Assembly: GCF_000973105.1 (NCBI RefSeq)
Contig: NC_015844.1
Location: 1,484,501-1,548,500 of the forward strand
DNA length: 64,000 bases
Direction of reading: 5' to 3'
DNA from: Zobellia galactanivorans
GTDB lineage: Bacteria > Bacteroidota > Bacteroidia > Flavobacteriales > Flavobacteriaceae
Shown here in pieces: positions 10,969-35,355 of this stretch. The translations under genes were made by a program, and so were the position numbers. Below the pieces are notes generated by a model that worked only from the letters and a program-made list of their open reading frames with translations, made no database searches and was not told the origin of the DNA. Every line of letters begins with the position of its first letter. Within the stretch, counting starts at the first letter, position 1.

Positions 10969-11089
10969 TTATGCAAAAGATACTCTCACCGCCCGTCCTT
11001 TTACACTTTAGCAGATCTGCAGAAACAACTGCAAACCTGCCCGTTACCATAAGCACAGATACAACCGCCTTTCTCAAAATCCCTTGCGC

Positions 11090-17046: not shown

Positions 17047-17218
17047 TATAAACTGGTTTGATATTTCGGCTAAATATATTGGATTATTTGCGAAAAACTC
17101 AAGGTTTAACAGACAATATATGCGATATCACATATGCCTCATAAATTAAGATAAAATTTCACAGGCCTGTAATTTTCTATACCTCTGGGCTTTGATTATC
17201 TTGCAGATGATTTTTACT

Positions 17219-20200
17219 ATGAAAAAAGCACTGGTTTTAATTTGGGTCGGGACGCTGTCCTTTTTTATACTTTCCTGCTCAGAAAAAAAGCAGGAACCCC
17301 CATTCCTATTTCAAAAACGTAAGAATTCCCAGACGGGAATCACCTTTAAAAACGCCCTCAAGAACACCCCCGAGCTTAACATACTTAACTATCTCTACTA
17401 TTACAACGGGGCTGGAATAGCGGCAGCGGATTTTAATAATGACGGAAGCGTAGACCTCTACTTTACGGCCAATGAGGCGGCAGACCATTTTTACCTGAAC
17501 CAGGGCGGCCTCAAATTCAAGGAAATAAGCCAAAAAGCGGGCATCAACAATACCGAGGGATGGACCACCGGAGTCACCCATGTCGACATCAACAATGACG
17601 GACTGCTAGACCTCTACATCTGTAAAGTCGGCAAGTACAAACATATGGAAGGCTCGAACCTGCTCTATGTAAACCAAGGTAATGACAAAGACGGAAACCC
17701 TGTTTTTAAGGAGGAAGCAAAGAAATACGGACTTGATTTCTCGGGATTTTCGACCCAAGCCGCATTTTTCGATTACGATCTTGATGGTGACCTAGACCTG
17801 TTTCTCCTCAACCACTCGGTACACCCCAACCGCACCTATGGCAAGGGAAGCAAAAGAAAAAAGACCGCCCCCTTATCCGGCGATCGACTTTACAAAAATG
17901 AAAACGGAAAATTTGTAGATGTTTCTTCCGAAGCCCATATTTTTCAAGGTGAAATCGGATACGGCCTTGGCCTTGGCATAAGCGACGTCAACAATGATGG
18001 CTATCCCGATGTATACGTAGGTAATGATTTTTTTGAGAACGACTACCTCTACATCAATCAAAAAGACGGCATTTTTAAAGAAATCATCTCTGAAAACGAC
18101 AAGAAGTTAGGGCATACCACCCACTTTTCAATGGGCAATGACCTGGCCGATATCAATAACGACGGTCTCACGGATATTGTTTCCCTAGATATGCTTCCCG
18201 AAAACCTGGAAACCTACAAAACATCAGGACTGGAATATCCCTATCCCACCTATCAAAACTACTTACGGAACGGTTATGCCCCCCAATACATGCAGAATAC
18301 CCTGCACCTCAACCTCGGCCACGGCAACTTTAGCGAAATAGCCCATTTAGCCGGTATTTCCGCTACCGAATGGTCATGGGGAGCCCTGCTGGCGGACTAT
18401 GATAACGACGGGCTAAAAGACCTTTTTGTTTCAAACGGAATCAAAGGGGCCACCAACGATATGGACTTCATCAACTTTATTGCCAACGACAATATTCAAA
18501 AACGTATTGAAGAAGGCATGACCGAAGAAGACATGGCCTTTATTGATGAAATGCCCCATAAAAAAGAACCGAATTACTTTTTCAGGAACAAAGGTGACCT
18601 GACTTTTGAAAACGTATCCAAAACATGGTCCGACCTAGAAAAAAGTTACAGCAACGGCAGTGTTTATGCCGACCTTGATAATGACGGCGACTTAGATATT
18701 GTAGTGAACAATGTCGACCAAGAGGCCTTTGTTCTGGAAAACACCAGCGAAACGACTGCGGAAAACCATTTTTTAAATATCGGTTTTAAAGGAGCCCCGA
18801 GCAACTTGTTCGGTATTGGGACAAAAGTCATCGCCTATAGCAAGAATAAGGCCATAAGCGCTGAAAATTTCGTCAGCAGGGGATACTTATCATCGGTACC
18901 GCCCCGACTGCATTTGGGCATAGGTAAAGATTCAGTTCTCGATTCGGTAAAAGTGATATGGCCGGGCGGAAAATTTCAAACCCTAAAAAACCTGCAGGCC
19001 GACCAAAAAATAGAACTGAGCATTTCAGAGGCCCGTGGAAATTATTACGAAACGCCTAAAACATCTGCGGCCACCTTACTACACAACAAAAACGACTTCC
19101 TTGGTTTCTACCATAAAGACAGCCCTACCCTTGAATTCAACCGAAGTCCCTTGGTTCCTTTTGCCAATACCAATGAAGGTCCCGAAATTTCAGTGGCCGA
19201 CATCAATGCAGATGGTCTCGACGATATTTTAATCGGTGGTGGAAAGGGCCAAGCTACGGCTTTGTTCGTGCAACGACCGAACGGTGTATTCAAAGAAGAG
19301 CAAACGGGGCTCTTTGAGGAAGACGCCATTAACGAAGACCTATCACAGCTCATTTTTGACGCCGACGGCGATGGCGACCAAGATCTCATCATTGTCAGTG
19401 GCGGTAACGAATTTCAATCGGGAAAGCCCCTACAGCCAAGGTTTTATCGAAACCACGAGGGGCAATTCAAAAAAGAAGACCAGCAGTTCTCCAATATTTC
19501 TCCCAATGCTTCAAAGGTAGGCTCCGTAGATTTTGACAATGACGGCGACCTCGACCTCATCATAGCCTCCGACCAGGTCCCGCACCAGTTCGGTACCACG
19601 CCTTCGCAATATATATTTGAAAACGATGGTTCAGGAAACTTTACCGACGTATCCGACACCTTCGGAAAGCCGTTTAAAGGCGTAGGCAACGTAAAAGATT
19701 TTATTTGGACGGATTTGGACGGAAATGGGTTTCAAGACCTTATAGCCGTAGGGCATTGGATGCCGGTCAGCATCTTTTACAATGATGGAAAAAGTTTACA
19801 GCCCCGGAAAGACCCTGCACTCAAAAACACCAATGGCTGGTGGAACGTAGTTGTGGCCGATGACTTTGACAATGACGGCGATATCGATTTTGTTGCAGGA
19901 AATTGGGGACTCAACAGCAAGTTCAGGGCATCTGCCACCGAAGCGATCACCCTTTACAATGCCGATTTTGACGAAAACGGAAACATAGACCCTATAGTCA
20001 CCTATTTTCATCACCACAAAGAAACCCCCTTTGCCTCAAAAGACGAACTCGTCAAACAATTGCCCTATTTGAACAAACGGTTTTTATCTTATAAAGACTT
20101 TGCCCAAGCTTCGGTTTTCGACCTCTTCTCAAAAGAGAAATTGATAAAATCTGACCAAAAAAAGGTATACGAATTACAAAGTTCGTTTTACGAAAACGAT

Positions 20201-20542
20201 GGAGTTGGCAATTTTAATATAAAAGCGCTCCCAACTATTGCACAAGCCTCCACAATTCATGATATTGCAGTAGATGACTTTGACAATGACGGCTTTAAAG
20301 ACCTATTAATTGTAGGCAACTCTACCGAAATAAGTACCCAACTAGGCCGAATGGATGCTTCCCACGGTATCATTTTACGCAACAATGGCAAGGGCGATTT
20401 CGAGTGGTCAGACGGCCAAGATTTCAATATTGAAGGGTCAGCAAGAAGCATTGCCAAAATTAGAATTAACAACCACCCGGTCTATATCGTTGGTATAAAC
20501 AACGATGTTCCGGTTTTCTTATCAAGAAAAAGCAACAACTAA
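17219..20542 (+). CDS. FG-GAP/VCBS-repeat lipoprotein with ASPIC/UnbV domain (first of three)
   Basis: 1107 residues from ATG 17219; the nine residues added by an earlier start precede the signal peptide and are unlikely. The lipobox is FFILSC. Residues about 55-480 hold repeated calcium-binding loops of the FG-GAP type (DFNNDGSVDLYF, DINNDGLLDLYI, DYDLDGDLDLFL, DVNNDGYPDVYV) forecasting a beta-propeller. An ASPIC/UnbV domain follows (SRGYLSSVPPRLHLGIG, then DSVKVIWPGG), and then a second propeller with the same loops to the C-terminus. This is the CRTAC1-like architecture of surface lipoproteins in Bacteroidota; the biochemical role is unknown, probably binding. One base separates its stop from the next gene's ATG. 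The best promoter candidate is a degenerate TATCTTGC at 17197. Confidence 0.9.
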   Translation: MKKALVLIWVGTLSFFILSCSEKKQEPPFLFQKRKNSQTGITFKNALKNTPELNILNYLYYYNGAGIAAADFNNDGSVDLYFTANEAADHFYLNQGGLKFKEISQKAGINNTEGWTTGVTHVDINNDGLLDLYICKVGKYKHMEGSNLLYVNQGNDKDGNPVFKEEAKKYGLDFSGFSTQAAFFDYDLDGDLDLFLLNHSVHPNRTYGKGSKRKKTAPLSGDRLYKNENGKFVDVSSEAHIFQGEIGYGLGLGISDVNNDGYPDVYVGNDFFENDYLYINQKDGIFKEIISENDKKLGHTTHFSMGNDLADINNDGLTDIVSLDMLPENLETYKTSGLEYPYPTYQNYLRNGYAPQYMQNTLHLNLGHGNFSEIAHLAGISATEWSWGALLADYDNDGLKDLFVSNGIKGATNDMDFINFIANDNIQKRIEEGMTEEDMAFIDEMPHKKEPNYFFRNKGDLTFENVSKTWSDLEKSYSNGSVYADLDNDGDLDIVVNNVDQEAFVLENTSETTAENHFLNIGFKGAPSNLFGIGTKVIAYSKNKAISAENFVSRGYLSSVPPRLHLGIGKDSVLDSVKVIWPGGKFQTLKNLQADQKIELSISEARGNYYETPKTSAATLLHNKNDFLGFYHKDSPTLEFNRSPLVPFANTNEGPEISVADINADGLDDILIGGGKGQATALFVQRPNGVFKEEQTGLFEEDAINEDLSQLIFDADGDGDQDLIIVSGGNEFQSGKPLQPRFYRNHEGQFKKEDQQFSNISPNASKVGSVDFDNDGDLDLIIASDQVPHQFGTTPSQYIFENDGSGNFTDVSDTFGKPFKGVGNVKDFIWTDLDGNGFQDLIAVGHWMPVSIFYNDGKSLQPRKDPALKNTNGWWNVVVADDFDNDGDIDFVAGNWGLNSKFRASATEAITLYNADFDENGNIDPIVTYFHHHKETPFASKDELVKQLPYLNKRFLSYKDFAQASVFDLFSKEKLIKSDQKKVYELQSSFYENDGVGNFNIKALPTIAQASTIHDIAVDDFDNDGFKDLLIVGNSTEISTQLGRMDASHGIILRNNGKGDFEWSDGQDFNIEGSARSIAKIRINNHPVYIVGINNDVPVFLSRKSNN

Positions 20543-20543
20543 T

Positions 20544-23500
20544 ATGCAATCAACAGTCAAAAAGGTTTTTTTTGCCCCGGTTCGGGCATTCCTTCCCGTG
20601 ATGATTCTTATGATTTCGTGCCATTCCGAAACTAAGGAAGAAGTTTCCAAAGAACCTAAAAAAGAAACGCTATTTAGCATGCTTCCTCCGGAAGAAACCG
20701 GTATAGATTTTATCAACTCGGTACAGAACCAAAAGAATTTCAACATATTCAAGTACCGTAATTTTTATAACGGTGGGGGCGTAGCCATAGGGGACATCAA
20801 CAATGATGGTCTAGCGGACATTTATCTTTCCGCCAATATGGGACCCAACAAACTCTACCTGAACAAAGGGGATTTTAAGTTTGAGGACATCTCCGAAAAA
20901 GCAGGCGTTACGGGCAATAAACCATGGTCTACCGGGGTCGTCATGGCCGATATCAATGCCGACGGACTCTTGGACATCTATGTTAGTAACGCCGGAAACA
21001 TGGAAGGCAACAACCATGACAACGACCTTTACATCAACAATGGCGACCTTACCTTTACCGAAAGGGCAAAAGAATTCAACCTTGCCGAGACCGGTTTCTC
21101 TACCCATGCCTCCTTTTTCGATTACGACAAAGATGGCGATCTCGATGCCTACATCTTGAACAACAGCAACATCCCGGTCAGTAGCTTGGGATACGCCGAA
21201 CAACGGAGCGTTAGGGCCCAAGATTGGGAGGGCGTTCCCCATATTTTTAGGGGCGTAGGCGATATACTTTTGCGAAACGACAACGGCAAATTCACCGATG
21301 TCAGTGAAGAGGCAGGTATCTATGGAAGTTTGATAGGCTTTGGCCTTGGGGTTATGGTCAGTGACATTAACGGCGACCTCTGGCCCGATATTTATGTTTC
21401 CAACGATTTTTATGAGCGCGATTACCTCTACATCAATCAAAAAGACGGTACTTTCAAAGAGGAAATAGAGGAATGGACCTCCCACCTATCACTTTCGGCC
21501 ATGGGTATAGATATGGCCGATATCAACAATGACGGTAATGCCGATATTTTCATTACCGATATGCTTCCCGAGGGCGACCAACGTGTAAAATCGGTAATGG
21601 AATTTGAAGGTTACAATGTTTTTAAGCTCAAACAAAGCAAAGATTTTTACCAACAGTACATTCAAAACACGCTACAACTCAACAACGGTAATGGTTCCTT
21701 CTCTGAAATCGCATACCATAGCGGTGTGGCAAAAACCGACTGGAGCTGGGCCGGTCTGTTATTCGACATGGACAATGACGGACTACGTGATATTTATATT
21801 ACCAACGGTATAAACCACGACCTTACCGACCTTGATTTCGTCGACTTCTTTGCCAATGAAATCATTCAAAAAATGGCCCTTACGGGTAAAAAGGAATCCA
21901 TTGATTCCATTATCAACAAAATGCCAGTGGTACCACAACCCAACTACGCCTACCGCAACAATGGCGATATCACTTTCGACAATGCCGCGGTGGACTGGGG
22001 GTTTGAAATACCCAGCCTCTCAAACGGGGCGGCTTATGGCGACCTTGACAATGACGGCGATCTAGACCTCGTGGTAAACAATGTAAACATGCAATCCTTC
22101 GTGTACAAAAACAAGACCAATGAACTTACCGACAACCATTACATCAAATTAAAGTTCATAGGAGAAGGAAAGAATCCGTTTGCCGTGGGTGCCAGCATCA
22201 AAATGTACTATAACGACCAAGTCGTGTTTCAAGAACTGATTCCTTCTCGGGGCTTTCAATCGTCGGTCGATTACATTATGGACATAGGCCTGGGCCAGAC
22301 CACCACTATCGATTCCCTTAGGGTGATTTGGCCCGATGACTATACCCAAAAGCTAGAAAAGGTTTCCGCCGATCAACTTTTGACCCTAAAACGGTCGGAT
22401 GCCACAGAAAAATACATCCCGAAAAAACCGTCCAATACCAAAACCTTACTCAAGGAAATAGAGGCTGGAAAATTAGTGGCCCATAAAGAGGACACCTATA
22501 CCGACTTCGATTACGAAAGCCTAATTTCCAAACTTGTTTCACAAGAAGGACCAGCCTTGGCCGTGGGTGATATAAACGGTGACGGCAACGAGGATATCTT
22601 TTTAGGAGGAGCCAGCGGCCATCCCGGAATAGTCTACGTCCATTCGGGCAATGGAAGGCTTTCGAAAAAAACATTGGATTTCGATATCGACCTAGAAGAT
22701 ACGGCAGCCGCATTCTTTGATGCCGACGGTGATGGAGACCAAGACCTGGTCGTAGGCACGGGAGGCAACCGGATCAACAAAGAAAACTCTTATAAACCCC
22801 GATTATATCTTAATGATGGCAGGGGGAACTTCAGTAAAACCACCGAAGACCTACCATCCGTATTCAAAAACATTTCGGTTATTTCCCCCTATGACTTCGA
22901 CCAAGACGGAGACATTGATTTGTTTGTCGGTTCCAGAAGCGTTGTGGGTACTTACGGCATAGACCCTGACCATCTGTTTTTAGAGAACAAAGGTGATGGA
23001 AAATTCGTCAATGCCACCGAAAAATTAGCCTACGACCTTAAAGATGCCGGTATGATAACCGGTGCCGTTTGGGCCGATATTGACGGTGATAACAAAAAAG
23101 ACCTACTGACCGTATCGGAATGGGGCCGACCGAATATCTACAAGAATTCGGGCAGACGCCTGAGCAGGCTACCGACCGACCTCGATAGCCTATTCGGCTG
23201 GTGGAACGCCATAGAAGCCGTCGACCTAGATAACGATGGCGACATGGACTTGGTATTGGGCAACCAAGGCACCAACGTACCTTACGAGGCTTCCGAAGAG
23301 CATCCTATGAAGCTATGGATCAACGATTATGACAACAACGGCACCTTGGAGCAGATCACTACCCGTGGATTTGACGGAAAAGATTATCCCATCCACCAGA
23401 AAAAAGAATTGACCGAGCAAATTGTATCGCTCAAAAAACAAAGCCTCAAAGCTTCCGAATACGCAAAAAAGACCATCGACGAACTCTTCCCCAAGGAAAT

Positions 23501-23903
23501 TTTCGACAGGAGTATCGTTAAGCAGGCCAATACCATGGCATCGGTAATCGCCATAAACGAGGGCGGTGGCAAGTTCACCATCAAGAAATTGCCCTCACGG
23601 GTGCAGCTCTCCTGCGTATGCGGCATCAGTTGTGCCGACATCGATAAAGACGGCAACCTAGACCTTATTATGGCCGGGAACAATTTTGAGTTCAAGCCAC
23701 AATACTCCCGTTTAGACGCTAGCTACGGCAATGTGCTCTTAGGTGACGGAAACCTAAACTTCAAATGGCAAGACTACAATACCAGTGGCTTTTTCATTAA
23801 AGAGGAAGTAAAACACCTGAAGCAGTTTAAGGACAAGAACGGCAAAAGCTACCTCATTGCCGCCATAAACAACGGCACACCAAAAATTTATGCGCTAGAT
23901 TAG
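20544..23903 (+). CDS. FG-GAP/VCBS-repeat lipoprotein with ASPIC/UnbV domain (second of three)
   Basis: 1119 residues from ATG 20544, one base after the preceding stop. The lipobox is LMISC (Cys about residue 26). The layout repeats that of the first protein: propeller one with DINNDGLADIYL, DINADGLLDIYV, DYDKDGDLDAYI and DINGDLWPDIYV; a central ASPIC/UnbV segment (PSRGFQSSVDYIMDIGLG, SLRVIWPDDY); propeller two with DINGDGNEDIFL, DADGDGDQDLVV, DFDQDGDIDLFV and DLDNDGDMDLVL. The three are clearly homologous but diverged, so an old tandem duplication. The aspartate-rich loops predict calcium binding outside the cell. Confidence 0.9.
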   Translation: MQSTVKKVFFAPVRAFLPVMILMISCHSETKEEVSKEPKKETLFSMLPPEETGIDFINSVQNQKNFNIFKYRNFYNGGGVAIGDINNDGLADIYLSANMGPNKLYLNKGDFKFEDISEKAGVTGNKPWSTGVVMADINADGLLDIYVSNAGNMEGNNHDNDLYINNGDLTFTERAKEFNLAETGFSTHASFFDYDKDGDLDAYILNNSNIPVSSLGYAEQRSVRAQDWEGVPHIFRGVGDILLRNDNGKFTDVSEEAGIYGSLIGFGLGVMVSDINGDLWPDIYVSNDFYERDYLYINQKDGTFKEEIEEWTSHLSLSAMGIDMADINNDGNADIFITDMLPEGDQRVKSVMEFEGYNVFKLKQSKDFYQQYIQNTLQLNNGNGSFSEIAYHSGVAKTDWSWAGLLFDMDNDGLRDIYITNGINHDLTDLDFVDFFANEIIQKMALTGKKESIDSIINKMPVVPQPNYAYRNNGDITFDNAAVDWGFEIPSLSNGAAYGDLDNDGDLDLVVNNVNMQSFVYKNKTNELTDNHYIKLKFIGEGKNPFAVGASIKMYYNDQVVFQELIPSRGFQSSVDYIMDIGLGQTTTIDSLRVIWPDDYTQKLEKVSADQLLTLKRSDATEKYIPKKPSNTKTLLKEIEAGKLVAHKEDTYTDFDYESLISKLVSQEGPALAVGDINGDGNEDIFLGGASGHPGIVYVHSGNGRLSKKTLDFDIDLEDTAAAFFDADGDGDQDLVVGTGGNRINKENSYKPRLYLNDGRGNFSKTTEDLPSVFKNISVISPYDFDQDGDIDLFVGSRSVVGTYGIDPDHLFLENKGDGKFVNATEKLAYDLKDAGMITGAVWADIDGDNKKDLLTVSEWGRPNIYKNSGRRLSRLPTDLDSLFGWWNAIEAVDLDNDGDMDLVLGNQGTNVPYEASEEHPMKLWINDYDNNGTLEQITTRGFDGKDYPIHQKKELTEQIVSLKKQSLKASEYAKKTIDELFPKEIFDRSIVKQANTMASVIAINEGGGKFTIKKLPSRVQLSCVCGISCADIDKDGNLDLIMAGNNFEFKPQYSRLDASYGNVLLGDGNLNFKWQDYNTSGFFIKEEVKHLKQFKDKNGKSYLIAAINNGTPKIYALD

Positions 23904-26900
23904 ATGTCATTACCAAAGCAAGAATCCACAAGAAAAACCTATAGTCCCGTGCATTTAAAGAACACGTATATTACGCTTTGCCTTGCCCTATCGACCCTTA
24001 CGGCTTGCGGTGACAAGCAGGGTTCGCTATTTCAGTTTCTTCCCGCATCGGAAACGGGCATTACCTTTGAGAATACCCTTACCGAGACCGACGACCTCAA
24101 TATTTTGGACTACCTCTACTTCTACAACGGGGGCGGTGTGGCCGTAGGTGATATTGATAACGACGGCCTAGCCGATATTTTCTTTTCGGGCAACCAAGTA
24201 AAGAACAAACTCTACCGAAACAAGGGCAACCTCCAATTTGAGGATATCAGTAAAAGTGCGGGCATTGAAGGCAACAGCACCTGGAACACCGGCTCGGTAA
24301 TGGGCGATGTAAACGGAGACGGGCTTTTGGATATTTACGTGTGTGCCGTTGTAGGCATCAACGGTTTCAACGGACATAACGAACTGTTCCTGAACAACGG
24401 TGACGGCACCTTTACCGAAAGCGCCGCCAAATACGGACTTGATTTCGACTCGTACAGCTCCAATGCGGCCTTTCTCGATTTTGACCTCGACGGCGATCTA
24501 GACATTTATCTCCTGAACCATGCGGTACATACCCAAGAATCTTTTGGCAAGGCAGATCTACGCCTAAAGCGGAACTACCAAACGGGGGACAAACTTCTTC
24601 GCAACGATGGAAACAAATTTGTAGATGTCAGTGAATCTGCCGGTATATACGGGGGCGTAAACGGTTACGGACTCGGATTGGCCATTTCAGATTTCAACCA
24701 AGACGGCTATCCCGACATTTATGTGGGCAACGATTTTCATGAAGACGATTACTACTATCTCAACAATGGGGATGGCACGTTTACCGAAAGCTCAAAGCAA
24801 TTTTTCGCACACACCTCGCGCTTTTCGATGGGTAACGATGTGGCCGACATCAACCATGATGGTTGGCCCGACCTTATTTCCCTAGATATGCTTCCGCAAG
24901 ACGAACATACGCTCAAATCTTCCGAGGGCGACGATAACGTACAGACTCAAAAATTACGCACCGAACGCTATGGATACGGGTATCAGTTCACCCGAAACAT
25001 GCTAAACATCAACCAACAAAACAGCAGCTTTCTAGAAACGGCCCTAATGAGCGGGGTAGCCGCCACGGACTGGAGCTGGAGCGCGCTTTTCGGCGACTAT
25101 GACCAAGATGGGGAACAAGACCTGTTTATCTCCAACGGGATACCCAAGCGCCCCAACGACCTAGACTTCATCAATTTTGTCAGCAGTGAACAAATCCGGA
25201 ACAAGATGAACAACACCAAGCTTATGGATCAGCAAGCCTTGGACAAAATGCCGGCCGGAAAAATTCACAATTACGTATTCAAAGGCTCCGACAACTTGAC
25301 CTTTAAAGACAAATCGGGCCAATGGATATCAAAAGATACCTTGGTCTCAGGCGCCACGGCCATGGGCGACCTTGACAACGACGGTGACCTCGACCTGATA
25401 ACCAACAACCTGAACGGCACCCCGGCACTCTACATTAACAAAACCGACCAAAATGCCAACTTTCTCAAAATAAGTTTAAAGTACGGACAGCACAATCACT
25501 TCGGTTTGGGAACCAAGGTTTTTTCATATACCCAAGGCCAATTACAATACAAAGAACTCTACACGGTGAGAGGATTTCAGGCGTCCTCGGAACCCATACT
25601 CCATTTCGGATATGGAAAGACTGAAAAAATAGATTCCCTACGAATAGTATGGCCCGATGGAAGCTATCAGACCCTGACCGACATTGCTACCAACCAAAGC
25701 TTGGAAATACGACCCGAAAACACCAAAAAGTTTAACTATTCCAATTTACGGCCACAGCAAGCGCCTCTTTTTGAAAAGGTCGAGAATAACCTGGGAATCG
25801 ATTTTCTGCATATTGAAGACAACTACACTGATTTTAATCGCCAAAAACTTATTCCCTACCAAATATCCGACCGTGGCCCCGCTACTGCCATTGGTGACCT
25901 GAACGGTGACGGAAAGAAGGATATTTTCTTCGGAGGCTCAAAATATATTCCTTCACAAGTCTTTGTACAAAACGATACCACATTTTCCCCTTGGCACATC
26001 AGTACTATTGCCAATGATTCTATCAAGGAAGATGTAGCGGCCGTAATCGGGGATTTTAATTCGGATGGAAAAAACGATTTGATCCTAGGCACCGGCGGAG
26101 GGGACTTTTACAATAAAATGAAGCCTTTGCTCAACTCGTATTACGTTCAAAACGACGCCGGTTTCAATGCCGCCAACCTACCGGAAAGCTTTCAAAACAC
26201 CTCTGTACTCGCCCCTTACGATATGGATGGCGATGGAGACCTTGACCTGTTCCTAGGAAGCCAAGCGATCTCGAACGACTTCGGAAAGGTTCCAGAGTCC
26301 GCCCTACTCTTAAACGACAATGGAAGCCTTATAGACCAAACCCCAGACGACCTTAAGAACATAGGGATGGTCACCAATGCCATTTGGCACGATTTTGATG
26401 CCGACGGTACCAAAGACCTGATTGTGGTAGGCGAATGGATGTCCCCTACTTTTTTCAAGAATACCAAAGGACAACTTACCAAGATCGATGTGGTTCAAAA
26501 AAACCTGAGCGGTCTCTGGCAAAGTATCGTCCCTTTTGATATTGATAACGATGGAGATACCGATTACCTGCTCGGCAACTGGGGAAGCAACACCAAGTTC
26601 AAGGCCTCGGCAGAACACCCGATGAAAATGTACTATGGCGATTTCGACAAGAACAGACAGACCGAAACCATCACGACCATAGAAAAAGATGGAAAATATT
26701 ATCCTTTGGAAGGCTTAGACGGACTTTCATCCCAGTTGGTTTCCCTTAAAAAGAAATTCAACACCTATAAGTCCTTCGCAGGTTCCCCCATTGAATCGAT
26801 CCTTGATAAGGAAGCCCTAAAAAATGCAAAAATACTGGAAGTACATGAGCTACGTTCCGGCTTCCTAAAAAACGAAAACGGACGATTTAGTTTTGTCCCT

Positions 26901-27209
26901 TTTCCGAACGAACTACAAGTTTCTCCCCTTATGGCCATGCTTCGCCATGATTTTGACGGGGACGGAAAAGAAGAAGTGCTGGCGGCCGGAAACTATTTTG
27001 GCGTTAAACCCTATCATGGAAGGTTTGATTCTTTTGGCGGCGCCTTGATAAAAGGGGAAAATAATGTAATTTTAAGCGCCCGGATCGGTTTAGACCTTAG
27101 CCAAAAATCTGTTAGACATTTAAACCTTTTACCTATAAACGGAGAAAATTATCTCTTGATTACCCTAAATAATTCCAACGCGCAGATTTATCGGCTAAAA
27201 AGAAAATAA
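23904..27209 (+). CDS. FG-GAP/VCBS-repeat lipoprotein with ASPIC/UnbV domain (third of three)
   Basis: 1101 residues; the ATG directly abuts the stop of the second copy, so translation is coupled. A longer n-region precedes the lipobox (LSTLTAC, Cys about residue 35). Propeller one carries DIDNDGLADIFF, DVNGDGLLDIYV, DFDLDGDLDIYL and DFNQDGYPDIYV; the ASPIC/UnbV part has TVRGFQASSEPILHFGYG and SLRIVWPDGS; propeller two has DLNGDGKKDIFF, DFNSDGKNDLIL and DMDGDGDLDLFL. The haloperoxidase gene begins 7 bases after the stop, so the trio and the enzyme are one transcript. The three could form a surface complex with it. Confidence 0.9.
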   Translation: MSLPKQESTRKTYSPVHLKNTYITLCLALSTLTACGDKQGSLFQFLPASETGITFENTLTETDDLNILDYLYFYNGGGVAVGDIDNDGLADIFFSGNQVKNKLYRNKGNLQFEDISKSAGIEGNSTWNTGSVMGDVNGDGLLDIYVCAVVGINGFNGHNELFLNNGDGTFTESAAKYGLDFDSYSSNAAFLDFDLDGDLDIYLLNHAVHTQESFGKADLRLKRNYQTGDKLLRNDGNKFVDVSESAGIYGGVNGYGLGLAISDFNQDGYPDIYVGNDFHEDDYYYLNNGDGTFTESSKQFFAHTSRFSMGNDVADINHDGWPDLISLDMLPQDEHTLKSSEGDDNVQTQKLRTERYGYGYQFTRNMLNINQQNSSFLETALMSGVAATDWSWSALFGDYDQDGEQDLFISNGIPKRPNDLDFINFVSSEQIRNKMNNTKLMDQQALDKMPAGKIHNYVFKGSDNLTFKDKSGQWISKDTLVSGATAMGDLDNDGDLDLITNNLNGTPALYINKTDQNANFLKISLKYGQHNHFGLGTKVFSYTQGQLQYKELYTVRGFQASSEPILHFGYGKTEKIDSLRIVWPDGSYQTLTDIATNQSLEIRPENTKKFNYSNLRPQQAPLFEKVENNLGIDFLHIEDNYTDFNRQKLIPYQISDRGPATAIGDLNGDGKKDIFFGGSKYIPSQVFVQNDTTFSPWHISTIANDSIKEDVAAVIGDFNSDGKNDLILGTGGGDFYNKMKPLLNSYYVQNDAGFNAANLPESFQNTSVLAPYDMDGDGDLDLFLGSQAISNDFGKVPESALLLNDNGSLIDQTPDDLKNIGMVTNAIWHDFDADGTKDLIVVGEWMSPTFFKNTKGQLTKIDVVQKNLSGLWQSIVPFDIDNDGDTDYLLGNWGSNTKFKASAEHPMKMYYGDFDKNRQTETITTIEKDGKYYPLEGLDGLSSQLVSLKKKFNTYKSFAGSPIESILDKEALKNAKILEVHELRSGFLKNENGRFSFVPFPNELQVSPLMAMLRHDFDGDGKEEVLAAGNYFGVKPYHGRFDSFGGALIKGENNVILSARIGLDLSQKSVRHLNLLPINGENYLLITLNNSNAQIYRLKRK

Positions 27210-27216
27210 AAGATCA

Positions 27217-28569
27217 ATGAAGAAGATTCTTATCGCACTAATATCGTTTGCTTTTGCGGTTTCGTGCAAAGCTCCACAAAAAGAAGAACCTATTAACATT
27301 ACCCCCGAAGAGCTTGACGCTTCAATAGACAGGGTGACGGAAATTATGATCCACGATATCTTTTCCCCTCCCGTTGCGAGTAGGATCTTTGCCTATCCCA
27401 ACGTTGCCGCCTACGAAATTGTAGCCGCCACCAATGACAACTACAACTCCTTGGCCGGCCAATTGAACGGGCTGACCGCCATACCGGAACCCGATACCAC
27501 TAAGACCATCAACTACGAGCTTGCAGCCGTCGTCGCCCATATGGAGCTTAGCAAAAGGTTGATTTTCTCAGAAGACCGAATGGAATCCCTGCGCGATAGC
27601 CTATACATGGTTTGGGAAGGGAAAAATCCTGTTCTATTCTCCGATTCCAAAGCCTACGGCCTACAAGTGGCCGACCATATAGGCGAATGGATGAACAAGG
27701 ACAATTACGCCCAAACCCGCACCATGCCGAAATTTACGGTAGATGCGGACGACCCCGGCCGCTGGCAACCCACCCCACCTGCCTACATGGACGGTATTGA
27801 ACCCCACTGGAATAAAATCAGGCCATTTGTATTGGATTCGGCAGCACAGTTCAAGCCCGTTCCACCTCCGGCATATTCCCTTGAAGAAGACTCCGCGTTT
27901 TATAAAGAATTAAAAGAAGTCTATGACGTAAGGAACAAAATCACCGAGGAAGGCGATAGTTCCGAAGAAATTCAGATTGCCCGCTTTTGGGATTGTAACC
28001 CTTATGTATCGGTTACCCGTGGCCACTTGATGTTCGCCACCAAGAAAATAACCCCAGGTGCGCATTGGATGGGAATTGCCAAAATTGCCGCACGTAAAAC
28101 CAACAGTGATTTTGCCAAAACCCTTTTCGCCTATACCAAGGCCTCGGTAGCCATGGCGGATGCCTTTATCAGTTGTTGGGACGAAAAGTACAGAAGCAAC
28201 CTCATCCGTCCGGAAACCGTAATCAACCAACATATAGACGACAGCTGGAAACCAGTGCTACAAACCCCTCCGTTTCCAGAGTACACCAGCGGACATAGTG
28301 TAGTCTCAGGGGCGGCATCGGTTGTACTGACCGAGGTCTTTGGTGACAATTTCTCCTTTGACGACGATACGGAAGTACCTTACGGCCTACCTATCCGAAG
28401 CTTTAAATCCTTTAAGCAAGCTGCCGACGAAGCAGCGATCAGTCGCATGTACGGAGGCATACACTACCGTGCAGCTATTGAAGTAGGGGTAAAACAAGGC
28501 AGGGACCTAGGTACCTTTGTCGTAAACAAACTACATATGCTATCCGATAAGAAAGTAGCCCAAAACTAG
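27217..28569 (+). CDS. Vanadium-dependent haloperoxidase (iodoperoxidase-like) lipoprotein
   Basis: 450 residues. The signal ends in FAVSC (Cys 17), so it is lipid-anchored. The PAP2/haloperoxidase vanadate pocket is complete: K324 and R331 in KYRSNLIRP, S358-G359-H360 in YTSGHS, R410 and H416 in SRMYGGIHYR. W321, F353 and Y263 are also present. From memory these are the positions of the same residues in the characterised Zobellia galactanivorans vanadium iodoperoxidase, so an iodide-oxidising role is more likely than a plain acid phosphatase. Such enzymes use hydrogen peroxide to oxidise halide, giving hypohalous acid. It follows three FG-GAP lipoproteins in the same operon, and the membrane-anchored GyrI-like gene starts 6 bases later. 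Halide preference cannot be proved from sequence. Confidence 0.85.
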   Translation: MKKILIALISFAFAVSCKAPQKEEPINITPEELDASIDRVTEIMIHDIFSPPVASRIFAYPNVAAYEIVAATNDNYNSLAGQLNGLTAIPEPDTTKTINYELAAVVAHMELSKRLIFSEDRMESLRDSLYMVWEGKNPVLFSDSKAYGLQVADHIGEWMNKDNYAQTRTMPKFTVDADDPGRWQPTPPAYMDGIEPHWNKIRPFVLDSAAQFKPVPPPAYSLEEDSAFYKELKEVYDVRNKITEEGDSSEEIQIARFWDCNPYVSVTRGHLMFATKKITPGAHWMGIAKIAARKTNSDFAKTLFAYTKASVAMADAFISCWDEKYRSNLIRPETVINQHIDDSWKPVLQTPPFPEYTSGHSVVSGAASVVLTEVFGDNFSFDDDTEVPYGLPIRSFKSFKQAADEAAISRMYGGIHYRAAIEVGVKQGRDLGTFVVNKLHMLSDKKVAQN

Positions 28570-28575
28570 GGTATT

Positions 28576-29475
28576 ATGGCGAAAAAAATAGCTCTGACCG
28601 CAACCGCCCTTTTGGTAGCGGGACTCCTCTGGTATCTTTTTATCATGCCCCAAGATTATCTGGTCCGCTTTCACACAAAGGCCTTGCCCGGCACGGTAAA
28701 CCAGATCGTAAAATTCTGGGCCGGCCAAAAGGGGAATGCTTCCTTTGTGCAGCAAAAAAGCCTGGGGGACTTCACCAGTACACTTACCCAGGCGGATACC
28801 ACGCTGACCTTTCGTTGGGAAATAAGCCGGGAAAACGACTCGACTTCCCTTGTAAAAGTCAAGATTTCCGACCATGCGCACAGCTTAAAGAACAGAATAG
28901 GGCTTCCCTTCTCCGACACCGATTTTGAAAAGCGGAGCAAAAGCACCGTTAAGGAAGTATACACGCTTTTACAGGAACATCTTTCCGAGTTTAAGACCAA
29001 AGTTGTGGGCGAAGCGGTCATCCCTGAAAAATACTGCCTCTGTGTGCCCTTGGAGAACACCCAGCTAAAGAAGGTGACCGGCATGATGCAGTACTACTCA
29101 AAATTGAGCAACTTTGTGGCCAAGAACGGTATGGAACCAAATGGCCGCCCCATGGTAGAGGTCGAAAACTGGAATACCGAAAACGACAGTATCGTCTACA
29201 ACTTTTGTTTTCCCATCATCAAAACCGACAGTCTACCCCAAGAAAAGGGTATCATCTATAAACAAATCAAGGAAAGAAAGGCCCTAAAGGCCATTTATAA
29301 CGGTAATTACCTGACTTCCGATCGTGCTTGGTACGCTTTGCTAGATTATGCCGAACGGAACGACATACCCCTTGTAAAAACGCCTTTGGAAGTCTTCCAC
29401 TCCAATCCCAATATGGGCGGAAACGAGTTGGACTGGAAAACGGAAATTTTCATGCCTATAAAAGAGCAAAAATAG
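28576..29475 (+). CDS. Membrane-anchored SRPBCC plus GyrI-like effector-binding protein
   Basis: 299 residues. One N-terminal transmembrane segment (about 5-24, LTATALLVAGLLWYLF) leads into a polyketide-cyclase/SRPBCC-like domain (about 30-145), and the C-terminal half (about 150-299) resembles the GyrI/AraC effector-binding fold: PNGRPMVEVENWN and a late Y/H-rich ligand region ending in EIFMPI. Such proteins bind small hydrophobic or aromatic compounds. It is the last gene of the FG-GAP/haloperoxidase operon, six bases after the enzyme gene, so it may bind a substrate or product of halogenation. That link is inference. Confidence 0.65.
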   Translation: MAKKIALTATALLVAGLLWYLFIMPQDYLVRFHTKALPGTVNQIVKFWAGQKGNASFVQQKSLGDFTSTLTQADTTLTFRWEISRENDSTSLVKVKISDHAHSLKNRIGLPFSDTDFEKRSKSTVKEVYTLLQEHLSEFKTKVVGEAVIPEKYCLCVPLENTQLKKVTGMMQYYSKLSNFVAKNGMEPNGRPMVEVENWNTENDSIVYNFCFPIIKTDSLPQEKGIIYKQIKERKALKAIYNGNYLTSDRAWYALLDYAERNDIPLVKTPLEVFHSNPNMGGNELDWKTEIFMPIKEQK

Positions 29476-29513: not shown

Positions 29514-30380
29514 ATGAAAATACGCCGGCAGAACCTATCGATTCATTTCATATTTGTTTTCCTTTTCTATAGCTGCTCCAACCACGGTCAACTGACCTAT
29601 GTGACCAAACTGCCAAAAAGCCTAAAGGAAAACTCCGGAATAGCCCTCTATAACAACGATTCGGCCTGGTTTATAGAAGATAGCGGCAACGACGACGACA
29701 TTACCAAGGTAGATTACCAAGGAAATATCTTAAGGGAACTGAAGGTCAAAAATGCCAAAAACCACGATTGGGAAGATTTGACCGAAGACAAAAAGGGCCA
29801 TCTGTATATCGGCGATTTTGGAAACAACGATAGTGACCGAAAAAATCTGGTCATCTACAAGTTGCCCAATCCGGAAACGGAGTCGGGCGACCATATCACC
29901 GCAGAAAAAATAAACTTCAGGTATCCTGAACAAAAACACTTTCCTGCCAAAAAAAGCGAACGCCTTTACGACGCCGAGGCCTTTTTCCATTACAATAATT
30001 ACCTCTATATTTTCACAAAGAACAGGGCAGACCCCTTCACTGGCGAATCACTCATTTACCGGGTACCCGACAGGAAAGGAGATTACGATGCCGAGTATTT
30101 GGGCAAGTTAACGACCTGCGACGATTGGGACAGCTGTAAGGTCACCTCCGCGGATATTTCACCTGACGGAAAGACCATAGTGCTATTGGGTTCCGGGAAA
30201 ATTTGGACCATCACTGATTTCGATTTGGAAAACCTTCCGGAAAGCCGTTTAAAAGAAACCGACCTAATGGTTCGCACCCAGTTGGAATCGGTCAGTTTTA
30301 TAGACAACGTTACCCTATTGCTTTCCGATGAGCAAAGCAACAAACAGGGCAGAAATTTATATAAATACGTTCTCAAATAA
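29514..30380 (+). CDS. Lipoprotein of unknown function, probable beta-propeller
   Basis: 288 residues from ATG 29514; the upstream extension overlaps the previous gene and lacks any signal peptide, while the short start gives a proper one (FVFLFYSC, Cys about residue 21) behind a consensus -7 box. The mature part has propeller-like short beta repeats (GHLYIGDFGNNDSDRKNLVI, YLYIFTKNRAD, TSADISPDGKTIVLLGSG). A conserved-looking NHDWEDL segment and DAEAFF suggest a metal- or ligand-binding site. I do not recognise the family. It is convergent with the large phosphoesterase gene, with 7 bases between the stops. Confidence 0.75.
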   Translation: MKIRRQNLSIHFIFVFLFYSCSNHGQLTYVTKLPKSLKENSGIALYNNDSAWFIEDSGNDDDITKVDYQGNILRELKVKNAKNHDWEDLTEDKKGHLYIGDFGNNDSDRKNLVIYKLPNPETESGDHITAEKINFRYPEQKHFPAKKSERLYDAEAFFHYNNYLYIFTKNRADPFTGESLIYRVPDRKGDYDAEYLGKLTTCDDWDSCKVTSADISPDGKTIVLLGSGKIWTITDFDLENLPESRLKETDLMVRTQLESVSFIDNVTLLLSDEQSNKQGRNLYKYVLK

Positions 30381-30387
30381 GTTAGGG

Positions 30388-33300
30388 TCAGAAACCAAAA
30401 CCTACCCCAAAGGAAAAGCGCAATCCGTCATCACTGTTGAACAGTGCCAAACGTGCCGTTACGATGTCAGCACCGTTCAGGAAAAAACCGCCTCCATAGG
30501 AGGTATGCCAATCTTTGGAATTTTCTTTGGGCAACCATACCCTTCCGTAGTCAAAACCTCCATAGAGCCCCATTGACAAGGGTAGTAACTGAGTTTTTAT
30601 TTTTCTGAGGCTATAACGGATATCGGTATTTTGGTAGTAGGCTTTTTTACCGGTAAAACGCTGGTTTCTGAAACCTCGCAATCCATCTACACCACCTATA
30701 CTGGCCGCTTGATAAAACTCATAATCATCTCCAATATTAAAATGCGCCTTCCATTTCGTGGCCAAGACCAATCTACCGCTAGGTATTAATTTATAATCGA
30801 AGCCTAGGCTGGGCACTACATACCCAAACGTATTCCCATTATCGACACTACGCTTATAACCGGCCACCAACGATGTCGACATACCCATGGTAGGGAATGC
30901 CTCGTTGTCGGTATTGGCATATGAATACTCGGCATCTACACCAACGAATTTATTCGCGGTCTCCTCTCCGTTCGCTTGGTAATACGTATTGATAAACCTA
31001 TTATCGGTCTCCTCTACCTCTATAGACTCATACGACACGCCCGCCCTGAACTTTCCACCCAACTGGCCACGCCAAACCAAGGCAGGTGCGAACTTTAAGG
31101 TCTGAAGGCGTACCCGGTTGTAGTCCATTCCCAAATCATCGTCAAAATTCTCGGTGCTGTTTCCAAAATCAAAAAAATTGATCGCAAAATTCGGGCTCGT
31201 AAAGCGTGCGTTCAATAGCAGGTTCCAATTTTCAAAAATATGGGCAAATTCACCGCTGTACCCCAATTCCACCCCGCTTGTGGCAAAGTAAAAAGAAGCA
31301 TCTAGCTTATGCCGTTGCGAAAACGGATTCTGCCTAAAACCGTTAAAGGTATACGTATCGCTTATCCCGATCTTAACCCCATCATCAGGATTATAACCGA
31401 TAGTCGGGATAATTTGATTAACCGAATTGCGAATTTGTAAGGGCAAGTAATTATTGGTGTTGTAATCATCGGTCAGCTTCACTTTGGCCCCACTTTTCGA
31501 CTCAACCGTATTTTTTTTCGATTTATAGTCGTAGATCGCAATGTTGCGTCCTTCGTTCACGATATAAGTATCATTGTTCTGCCCGCCTATCAATCGAACC
31601 TTAATCGCACTGGGTACATCGCCGTTCACTTCAAAAATATCGTCGTCGTCTAAGCCGTAGACCCAAATTTCCTTGGTGACGTCCCTTTGAAATACCTTTT
31701 CAAAGAATAGTTTGTCTTTCTTCCCTTTGATATTACGGTATACCTTTACTTGGGTTTCCTTCCCGTTAAGGACATTCACCTCAAACCAGTCGTCTTTATC
31801 CGTCCCAGAAACTACCGCGTATTTATTCAATACTCCATAATAGATTTCCGCGGTCTCTTCGATCTTGGCCGCCCTGGCCAACAATATACGCTTGATTTCG
31901 GCAACCGTTTCATCCCTTACCTCTTCGGGAAAATAGGCAAATGCCCTGTCAATAACCTCTTCGGTAAGGTTCTCTCGTATAAATTGCGCCTGTTCTTGCC
32001 ATTCTTGAGAGGTCGTTTCCGTTAAAAGGGCCATATCGAGCACATAGGTTTTTGGCGAAGAATTAAACCCCTTTACGTTTCGTATGTCTTCATTAAAGCC
32101 TTCCATTAAACGTAGGGCAGGTATGATTCTCGTGGCCAAGTTCATAAAAAAGCCATCGCCATGTTTCGAATAGACCATATCACGGTCCCTAGGTACCGGT
32201 TTGTAGACGACCTTATCATTTTCCTCATCTTTAAATTCGGCCCATCTCCATTGATCCAAATGACGGTCCCAGTCTCCCGTAACCATATCGAAAAGCCGTG
32301 CCCTTAGATATAGCTGTGAGTCTACGGAGTATTTCTCGTCGTCGCGCAGGTCTTCGAGCATGCTATCCGTGCTCTTGAGTTCCTCGGAGTGGCCAAAGCT
32401 CTCTAAGTCGCCATGACCGTCCCCGGCATGCTCCTCGATCATATAGAGTTCGTTGCCGAAGGATTGGTTGTATTCTTTCAAGGCCGGTTGTTTGGGTACA
32501 TAATACAAGACCGGATTGGTATGGAACAGCCCCACCGCATCAGACAATACCCCTGTGGTAAAAGGTCCATAAGGATGTGAACCCGTATAAAAATCCAAAA
32601 GGAACTTTTCGGTATAGGTATTTTCAAAATCGCCCATCACGTATTGCTCCTGAAAGGCCATCGCCTGCAGATAAAGCTCCGCATCTTTGCGCAGGGCCCG
32701 CATAACAAACTCCTTACCGTCCTTATCCCTTAACCGCAACGATTTTGATTGATGTCCTCCCCCTTTGTGTACCGGTACAAGTCCGCCCATAAGCGTATCT
32801 AGGTTTACGGTGGGAGCCTTTACTTTGGTAGCGTAGTATTTACGGTAACGGTCGCCCCATAGGAACTTAAAAAAACCGCTTCGCTCTACCTCTTCCGGTG
32901 AATATACCGAAGCTTCAACGGTAGCCGGAAATTTTTCGGGGTATTTTTCTTCTGAGAACGTTCGATCCGGGGGCAGCACTTCCGTTGTGAACAAAAATTC
33001 CTTTTCATCATTAGGTGCCACGCCAAAATACCGCACACGCGAAGAACCATCGGTATACACTTCCAAAGCGGCAAAACCCCGGTGCCCCGTAGAAAACCGG
33101 CTTCCGTTCAACAAGCGGGTAGCCCCTATTTTCGCGCCCGAACCGCTTACAATCTGCGGAGTGTTCTCTTCTACTATATATTGCATTGTATGCTCGTGCC
33201 CTGAAGCTAAGATCACCTTCTCGGAATACTGCGCCAAGGTCAATAAACGTTTTCGCAACTCGGTATAGCGCTTGTTCTGCATATCTTCGATAGAAGCTCC

Positions 33301-34113
33301 CGTAGTTCTTCTCAAGACGTTGATAAGGGTGCCCAAAATAGGCAAAGGACCAATGTTTCCTTTGGGATAAAAATGATTTCGTAAAGGGTAATACCCGCCA
33401 TGGGTACCGTAGCTGAACATCGGGTGATGCATGGCTATAATGGTGGTACGTTGACGATTGTCCTTAATTTCATCCTCTAGTTCCAACCAAAACTTGTCAC
33501 GCGTTTTAATATCACATTTATCGTTGATATCGGGCCTTTTGTTCCAATTGGTCAAGTACCACTCCGTATCAATGGCGATAACCGCAACATCATCATTGAT
33601 TTCAATGGTCTCTATCGGGCATCCATCCTCAGGAAAAAAAACCTCTTTGCTATCGAGTTTTTCCTGAATATATTTTTGTTCGCGTTCAAGGCCTACAAGG
33701 CCCTCGGTATACCAATCGTGGTTTCCCGGAATAAAAATCGGCTTTCCCTTAAAGTTTTCGAGCGTCTTTAATTGGGCATCCAAATCATTCTTCGCCTTTA
33801 AGTAAGCTTCCGTGGAATCTTTGGGGTCGGGCATGCCTGCCGGATATATATTATCGCCCAAAAATAAGGCCGTACTATTCTCATCGGCATTGTCGAGGCT
33901 TTTTTTAAAAACCTTCAAGGCATCGTTCATATCGTTCATAGGGGAAAGACCGGCATCGCCGATCAGATAGAACGTATGGGCCACCTTTTTATCGGAAGAC
34001 ACATCGTGCGCACCGGATACATCGGCGTATTTCGTCTTATATGTGGCACAGCCCGTGAATAAGGCGATTAAGACTATTAGAGCAAAATGTTTGCCCAATA
34101 GGAGACTATTCAT
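30388..34113 (-). CDS. Lipoprotein metallophosphoesterase fused to a C-terminal outer membrane beta-barrel
   Basis: 1241 residues from the ATG at 34111-34113; an ATG nine codons earlier adds a non-signal tail. Lipobox LFTGC (Cys about 22). Calcineurin-like phosphoesterase motifs are in order over about residues 45-330: LIGDAGLS, FLGDNIYPAG, PGNHDWY, MHHPMFSYG and SGHEHTMQY. A long middle region (about 380-800) of unknown type follows; the last 380 residues have alternating beta strands, aromatic girdle residues and end GVGFGF, typical of an Omp85/surface-antigen-like barrel. It therefore looks like an outer membrane protein carrying a phosphatase. It is divergent from the HD-PycTM gene, with only 39 bases between starts. 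Confidence 0.82.
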   Translation of the reverse strand: MNSLLLGKHFALIVLIALFTGCATYKTKYADVSGAHDVSSDKKVAHTFYLIGDAGLSPMNDMNDALKVFKKSLDNADENSTALFLGDNIYPAGMPDPKDSTEAYLKAKNDLDAQLKTLENFKGKPIFIPGNHDWYTEGLVGLEREQKYIQEKLDSKEVFFPEDGCPIETIEINDDVAVIAIDTEWYLTNWNKRPDINDKCDIKTRDKFWLELEDEIKDNRQRTTIIAMHHPMFSYGTHGGYYPLRNHFYPKGNIGPLPILGTLINVLRRTTGASIEDMQNKRYTELRKRLLTLAQYSEKVILASGHEHTMQYIVEENTPQIVSGSGAKIGATRLLNGSRFSTGHRGFAALEVYTDGSSRVRYFGVAPNDEKEFLFTTEVLPPDRTFSEEKYPEKFPATVEASVYSPEEVERSGFFKFLWGDRYRKYYATKVKAPTVNLDTLMGGLVPVHKGGGHQSKSLRLRDKDGKEFVMRALRKDAELYLQAMAFQEQYVMGDFENTYTEKFLLDFYTGSHPYGPFTTGVLSDAVGLFHTNPVLYYVPKQPALKEYNQSFGNELYMIEEHAGDGHGDLESFGHSEELKSTDSMLEDLRDDEKYSVDSQLYLRARLFDMVTGDWDRHLDQWRWAEFKDEENDKVVYKPVPRDRDMVYSKHGDGFFMNLATRIIPALRLMEGFNEDIRNVKGFNSSPKTYVLDMALLTETTSQEWQEQAQFIRENLTEEVIDRAFAYFPEEVRDETVAEIKRILLARAAKIEETAEIYYGVLNKYAVVSGTDKDDWFEVNVLNGKETQVKVYRNIKGKKDKLFFEKVFQRDVTKEIWVYGLDDDDIFEVNGDVPSAIKVRLIGGQNNDTYIVNEGRNIAIYDYKSKKNTVESKSGAKVKLTDDYNTNNYLPLQIRNSVNQIIPTIGYNPDDGVKIGISDTYTFNGFRQNPFSQRHKLDASFYFATSGVELGYSGEFAHIFENWNLLLNARFTSPNFAINFFDFGNSTENFDDDLGMDYNRVRLQTLKFAPALVWRGQLGGKFRAGVSYESIEVEETDNRFINTYYQANGEETANKFVGVDAEYSYANTDNEAFPTMGMSTSLVAGYKRSVDNGNTFGYVVPSLGFDYKLIPSGRLVLATKWKAHFNIGDDYEFYQAASIGGVDGLRGFRNQRFTGKKAYYQNTDIRYSLRKIKTQLLPLSMGLYGGFDYGRVWLPKENSKDWHTSYGGGFFLNGADIVTARLALFNSDDGLRFSFGVGFGF

Positions 34114-34152
34114 TCTCAATATTTTGTAATTTGGATCCATAAACCATTTTTC

Positions 34153-35355
34153 ATGCCGGATTTACTATCGAAAACCGAGGAATTTGCAACTCATCTACTC
34201 GCCAAAGATTTAGATACCAATTACTTATACCACAATCTTAGACATACGCAACGCGTGGTCAAAAGTACTAAAGAATTACTGGACTATTATAACTTAAATA
34301 CCAAGGATAGTGATGCAATAACCCTTGCCGCGTGGTTACATGATACCGGTTATACAAAAGGCGCAGAAAACCACGAGGAAAACAGCTGTATCATAGCCAG
34401 AGAATTTCTTACGGACCAAAATTGCGACCCACAGACCATAGAAACGGTCTGCAGTCTTATTATGGCTACCAAGAAGGGCTACGAGCCACAAAACCTGATG
34501 GAAGAAATAATGCGTGATGCCGATGCATCGCATTTGGCCCGATCAAGTTATGATGAAACCTGTGAAATGTTACGGGAAGAGTTAGCCTTATTGGGCATTG
34601 CCGAAATCACACCAAAGGAGTGGCGCCGCGCCAACATTAAAATGTTTCAGACCGAACATCGTTTTTATACCGATTATGCCATAAAACATTGGCAAGAAGG
34701 CAAGGACGCGAACCTCAAGAAATTGGTAAAGCGTGATAAAAAGCAAAAAAAGGTCCGTAAAAAAGAAGAACTTAAGGTCCAATTAAAGAACCAAAGTCCG
34801 GAAAGGGGTATACAGACCATGTTCAGGGTGACCATGCGGAACCACCTGAAGTTAAGTGATATTGCCGATACCAAGGCCAATATCCTTTTGTCGGTCAACG
34901 CGATTATCATTTCGTTGATGCTAACCAACCTCATCCCAAAACTAGATAACCCTTCCAATGACTATCTGGTCATTCCGGCAGGTATTTTTGTGCTTTTCAG
35001 CGTTACCTCTATGATCATGTCGATTATGGCGACGCGCCCGAACGTTACCAGTGGGGAATTTACCAAAGAGGATGTCAACCAGAAAAAAGTAAACCTCTTG
35101 TTCTTCGGCAACTTCCATAAGATGAAGCTCGAAGATTATGAGTGGGCCATTCAAGAGTTGATCAAAGACCAGAAGTACGTCTATGCTTCATTGACCAAGG
35201 ATCTTTATTTTCTCGGACTTGTTTTGGATAGGAAGTACAAACTTTTGCGTTGGACGTATACCGTATTTATGATTGGAATGACGTTATCGGTTATAGCTTT
35301 TTTCGTGGCCTTGAAATTCTACGGCCCCGAAAGAATAATTGAATTGCCCCACTAG
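34153..35355 (+). CDS. HD-domain phosphohydrolase fused to a Pycsar-effector-like (PycTM/DUF5706) membrane domain
   Basis: 400 residues. Residues about 1-170 are an HD domain: YHNLRHTQRVV (H31), WLHDTGYT (H63-D64), and RDADASH (D122/D124) supply the metal ligands. After a lysine-rich linker (about 185-215) comes the PycTM/DUF5706 signature MRNHLKLSDIADTKANILL with two membrane helices (about 243-262 and 273-293) and another near the C-terminus (about 366-388). PycTM domains are known as cell-killing effectors gated by cyclic pyrimidine monophosphates in Pycsar defence. No nucleotide cyclase gene is adjacent, so this copy may have a housekeeping or signalling role, with the HD part degrading a nucleotide messenger. 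Its stop overlaps that of the convergent GAF-like gene by 4 bases. Confidence 0.85.
   Translation: MPDLLSKTEEFATHLLAKDLDTNYLYHNLRHTQRVVKSTKELLDYYNLNTKDSDAITLAAWLHDTGYTKGAENHEENSCIIAREFLTDQNCDPQTIETVCSLIMATKKGYEPQNLMEEIMRDADASHLARSSYDETCEMLREELALLGIAEITPKEWRRANIKMFQTEHRFYTDYAIKHWQEGKDANLKKLVKRDKKQKKVRKKEELKVQLKNQSPERGIQTMFRVTMRNHLKLSDIADTKANILLSVNAIIISLMLTNLIPKLDNPSNDYLVIPAGIFVLFSVTSMIMSIMATRPNVTSGEFTKEDVNQKKVNLLFFGNFHKMKLEDYEWAIQELIKDQKYVYASLTKDLYFLGLVLDRKYKLLRWTYTVFMIGMTLSVIAFFVALKFYGPERIIELPH

Follow-up and report, generated by a model that had tools for sequence, protein, structure and literature searches.

The iodoperoxidase zgVIPO1 of Zobellia galactanivorans and its conserved gene block with CRTAC1-like ASPIC proteins

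The gene at positions 27217 to 28569 on the plus strand of the window, by which we mean the whole 64,000-nucleotide stretch of Zobellia galactanivorans DNA analyzed here (NC_015844.1, positions 1,484,501 to 1,548,500), is the gene of zgVIPO1, a vanadium-dependent iodoperoxidase already described from this seaweed bacterium. We place the probability of this assignment, identity and chemistry taken together, at about 0.98. The enzyme is already known and provides the reference structure among bacterial vanadium iodoperoxidases; it adds no novelty in itself, and we found no evidence against its identity. Of greater consequence is the conserved gene block in which it lies, which provides a gene-level hypothesis for iodine accumulation by marine Bacteroidota and for the accompanying need for Ca2+.

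Identity and active site of zgVIPO1

The open reading frame is intact, running without interruption from an ATG at 27217 to a TAG ending at 28569 and encoding 450 residues. A search of the PDB sequences revealed that all 450 are identical to those of the chain in entries 4CIT and 4USZ, which share one sequence and are both titled 'vanadium-dependent haloperoxidase'. The only difference is the presence of eight extra N-terminal residues in the PDB chain, presumably belonging to the construct. Because the identity is complete, the gene in the window is that of the reference enzyme itself, whose crystal structure was reportedly described by Fournier et al. in 2014. The alignment with solved vanadium iodoperoxidases thereby bears out the sequence-only reading, which had proposed an iodoperoxidase-like vanadium haloperoxidase. 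Among the other species compared, the nearest protein was that of Z. uliginosa, which is 98% identical. Pfam recognized a single domain, PAP2 (PF01569, 38.7 bits, cut-off 27.2), and a search of NCBIfam gave no family for the iodoperoxidase, or for the GyrI-like and ASPIC_C proteins encoded beside it.

In the vanadium haloperoxidases, a pocket of the PAP2 fold holds vanadate with a histidine as the covalent ligand, corresponding to H416 in zgVIPO1. We take the hydrogen-bond partners of the vanadate to be K324, R331, S358, G359, and R410, and H360 to be the acid/base residue. The chemistry established for the family begins with H2O2, which converts the cofactor to peroxovanadate; iodide then attacks, and HOI or I2 is released. 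In the case of zgVIPO1, the enzyme would be exported as a lipoprotein, and the HOI or I2 would be released into its surroundings.

The conservation of the active site was followed in 80 orthologous loci (L013-L092) from Flavobacteriaceae and close kin, the proteins of which are 66-98% identical to zgVIPO1. The sequence-only reading had listed a complete pocket in the order K324, R331, S358-G359-H360, R410, and H416, together with W321, F353, and Y263, in the numbering of the characterized Z. galactanivorans iodoperoxidase. All ten residues were found at exactly those numbers, and the numbering was correct because the protein of the window and the reference protein are the same. The pocket residues are invariant in the 80 orthologs, as are nine of the ten named residues overall, Y263 being replaced by phenylalanine in three. 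Given this invariance and the 100% identity to the crystallized protein, the match of residues is not due to chance. Among 29 more distant relatives, including a paralog that is 49% identical, W321, K324, R331, F353, H360, R410, and H416 are invariant and Y263 is not kept, and in 12 very distant relatives nearly all of the residues other than Y263 are retained. Since almost the same set is thus found in uncharacterized relatives of only about 30-58% identity, the residues by themselves do not prove iodide specificity; judged from these alignments, the list is more a sign of a functional vanadate pocket than of a preference for iodide.

The predicted signal peptide and lipobox are encoded at 27217 to 27267 on the plus strand. 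The lipobox that had been claimed is present as A-V-S-C17, and the cysteine is kept in 80 of 80 orthologs, making it likely that zgVIPO1 is lipid-anchored, facing either the cell surface or the periplasm. The optimum of the surface-export signal (LES) of Bacteroidetes lipoproteins is C-X-K-(D/E)2, situated right after the cysteine (PMC5080379). In zgVIPO1 the sequence from C17 reads C-KAPQ-KEE, which places KEE at +6 to +8, beyond the position described as optimal. In 33 of the 80 orthologs, a pattern resembling K..(D/E)2 falls between +2 and +9.

Published work provides the evidence for cofactor and activity. The table of a review enters 4CIT under the name Zg-VIPO1 from Z. galactanivorans and records bound vanadate, with iodide as its halogen (PMC8407142). 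The same table gives bound vanadate for 4USZ, there named Zg-VIPO2, and this name appears to be an error, because the two entries have one and the same sequence in the PDB. A passage by the Arenibacter authors cites 4USZ as the Z. galactanivorans enzyme (PMC5064120). In the native gel experiments described in PMC10427571, which employed o-dianisidine, ZgvIPO1 was the positive control and had iodoperoxidase activity only, bromo- and chloroperoxidase activities having been assayed as well.

These observations bear on two other readings of the enzyme. As PAP2 is the sole Pfam match, and as both the fold and the phosphate pocket are common to phosphatases, zgVIPO1 might have been an acid or lipid phosphatase devoid of halide chemistry, with the vanadate pocket being merely the shared phosphate pocket. 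However, the protein is identical to one whose crystals contain vanadate and whose iodoperoxidase activity has been assayed, and W321 and F353 are kept in all 80 orthologs, leaving the probability of such a phosphatase practically nil. The PAP2 acid phosphatase was ruled out as a candidate by identity to the assayed iodoperoxidase, for which iodide oxidation has been published (PMC10427571). Alternatively, zgVIPO1 might act as a bromoperoxidase, a chloroperoxidase, or a haloperoxidase of broad range, rather than as an enzyme of iodide only, given that the residues of the vanadate pocket are common to all haloperoxidase types and that little is known of what determines halide specificity (PMC13198595). 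The behavior of the control enzyme on native gels nonetheless makes this very improbable.

The gene run surrounding zgVIPO1

Examination of the window revealed that the iodoperoxidase gene is the fourth in a run on the plus strand, preceded by three genes encoding ASPIC proteins of approximately 1,100 residues and followed by a gene for a GyrI-like protein. ASPIC_A (17219 to 20542), ASPIC_B (20505 to 23903), and ASPIC_C (23904 to 27209) belong to the same CRTAC1-like FG-GAP/ASPIC-UnbV family by Pfam, with matches to PF13517, PF01839, and PF07593 in ASPIC_A, and the assignment of ASPIC_C draws in addition on phmmer and a predicted model. The likely start of ASPIC_A, judged from its start context, is 17219, the listed reading frame beginning at a TTG at 17192. 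ASPIC_B and ASPIC_C match the lipobox pattern, with MISC and LTAC respectively; ASPIC_A, a putative lipoprotein, has L-S-C near the N-terminus and leaves the pattern unmatched. The motif Dx[DN]xDG, known to bind Ca2+, occurs 12 times in ASPIC_A, 11 times in ASPIC_B, and 13 times in ASPIC_C.

Downstream, also on the plus strand, lies the GyrI-like gene (28576 to 29475), whose 299-residue product has a small-molecule-binding domain (PF06445, 38.2 bits) and a hydrophobic N-terminus. It is followed on that strand by a gene (29514 to 30380) for a conserved protein of about 288 residues, here SMP350, which has Y-S-C near the N-terminus and a homologue in 58 of the orthologous loci; a Pfam search of this protein gave no match. 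Its likely start is the ATG at 29514, the listed frame beginning at a TTG at 29328. With that start, the successive spacings from ASPIC_A through ASPIC_B, ASPIC_C, the iodoperoxidase, and the GyrI-like gene to SMP350 are -38, 0, 7, 6, and about 38 bp. A scan of the run for promoters and terminators gave no clear excess over shuffled sequence, flavobacterial promoters differing from those of sigma-70, and consequently neither supports nor breaks an operon. A term search of the main text of the 2017 Z. galactanivorans transcriptome paper, which inferred transcription units, did not find the locus.

Three other genes or gene pairs of the window may be recorded here. A DNA polymerase III alpha-like gene overlaps a gene for an IMS/Y-family polymerase at 11084-15278, resembling a mutagenesis cassette of the dnaE2/imuB type. 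The region 30388-34140 encodes a fusion of 1,250 residues in which a calcineurin-like phosphoesterase is joined to a C-terminal region resembling an outer-membrane barrel (a weak ShlB match). At 34153-35355 lies a gene whose product joins an HD domain with a PycTM (Pycsar effector) domain, with no cyclase identified nearby.

Conservation and possible meaning of the vIPO-ASPIC block

The linkage of vIPO and ASPIC genes is real and widespread. An ASPIC gene lies directly upstream of vIPO on the same strand in 67 of the 80 orthologous loci and elsewhere in the stretch in 6, with none in the stretch seen in the remaining 7; in 59 of 76 loci, vIPO is directly followed by a GyrI-like gene. We also compared 37 more distant loci, chosen to span families and identities rather than as a random sample, and found ASPIC genes directly upstream in 14 (from nine families), directly downstream in 2, elsewhere in 3, and absent in 18. 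Among 395 genomes of the phylum, PF07593 was present in 79 of the 84 having a vIPO match versus 109 of the 311 having none (Fisher p about 3e-24, a value that ignores relatedness). Two Arenibacter loci (L032, L042) have ASPIC genes beside vIPO. Among the open-access papers searched, none described a linkage of haloperoxidases with UnbV/FG-GAP or with SusD/VCBS proteins.

The Z. galactanivorans genome itself holds ten ASPIC genes in six loci, with three at vIPO1, two at vIPO2, and five across four others. The ASPIC genes at vIPO2 and those of the four further loci sit directly behind SusC-SusD. The protein that we name zgVIPO2 (G000:C1:2434341-2435618) is 49% identical to zgVIPO1 and has the same pocket residues, with the exception of asparagine at position 263. 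Like zgVIPO1, it is encoded directly behind ASPIC genes, but in a SusC-SusD-ASPIC-ASPIC-vIPO arrangement (G000:C1:2424341-2444340, L145). A third vIPO-like protein, of 499 residues (G000:C1:2635974-2636837, L165), has the full pocket, with position 263 falling in a gap, and has no ASPIC neighbor. A protein termed 'vIPO3', which may be this 499-residue protein, is reported to be upregulated on Ascophyllum (PMC9296495).

The gene for zgVIPO1 lies in a tight run with those for three CRTAC1-like proteins rich in Ca2+ motifs, at least two of them having a lipobox, and for a GyrI-like protein. We infer that the ASPIC proteins and vIPO most likely form a cell-envelope assembly that binds or imports a compound such as oxidized iodine, an iodinated algal compound, or another ligand, with vIPO acting on that compound or supplying oxidized iodine. 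An uptake assembly is favored because elsewhere in this genome ASPIC genes occur directly behind SusC/SusD uptake pairs. Under another reading, the CRTAC1-like neighbors would be unrelated to iodine, with vIPO as an add-on to a locus for surface uptake or adhesion and a linkage that is historical. In its favor, all ten ASPIC genes lie behind SusC/SusD or beside vIPO, vIPO is missing from four of the six ASPIC loci, and some vIPO orthologs have no ASPIC neighbor. We give this a chance only somewhat short of even. Seven of the 80 orthologous loci and 18 of the 37 distant loci lack ASPIC genes, as does the neighborhood of the 499-residue paralog, which argues against a shared function; adjacency kept in 67 of the 80 orthologous loci, together with its recurrence upstream in nine further families, exceeds what one would expect to survive drift.

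A more specific form of the envelope assembly would make vIPO part of a widespread, hitherto undescribed Bacteroidota system whose Ca2+-binding, CRTAC1-like double-propeller lipoproteins serve, for example, in the binding or uptake of oxidized iodine or iodinated products. We regard this form as tentative and, as it stands, unlikely. If it were true, the ASPIC-vIPO system could explain the Ca2+ requirement stated for iodine uptake in a passage on Arenibacter sp. C-21 (PMC5064120), a correspondence that is suggestive only.

Comparison with known haloperoxidases and with CRTAC1

The S-G-H motif and the region of the catalytic histidine in algal and fungal vanadium haloperoxidases, such as the Corallina bromoperoxidase (1QHB), align with those of zgVIPO1. 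The likeness to the Corallina enzyme that is detectable by sequence is confined to a stretch of approximately 70 residues (E 0.009), and the algal and fungal enzymes have been placed in separate groups (PMC13198595).

The ASPIC proteins find their nearest solved counterpart in cartilage acidic protein 1 (CRTAC1), with which they share a propeller of FG-GAP repeats and an ASPIC/UnbV domain. ASPIC_C matched murine CRTAC1 (9etn) by sequence (phmmer E 3.8e-16), and a Foldseek search with its predicted model (pLDDT 80.8) returned the same entry as the top match (E 1.7e-25). The model has two repeat regions, of which the N-terminal part resembles murine CRTAC1; for the second half there was no clear solved counterpart among the matches listed. 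The bacterial ASPIC proteins resemble CRTAC1 in architecture, but differ from it in being about twice as long, in having a second repeat region, and in bearing lipoprotein-like N-termini.
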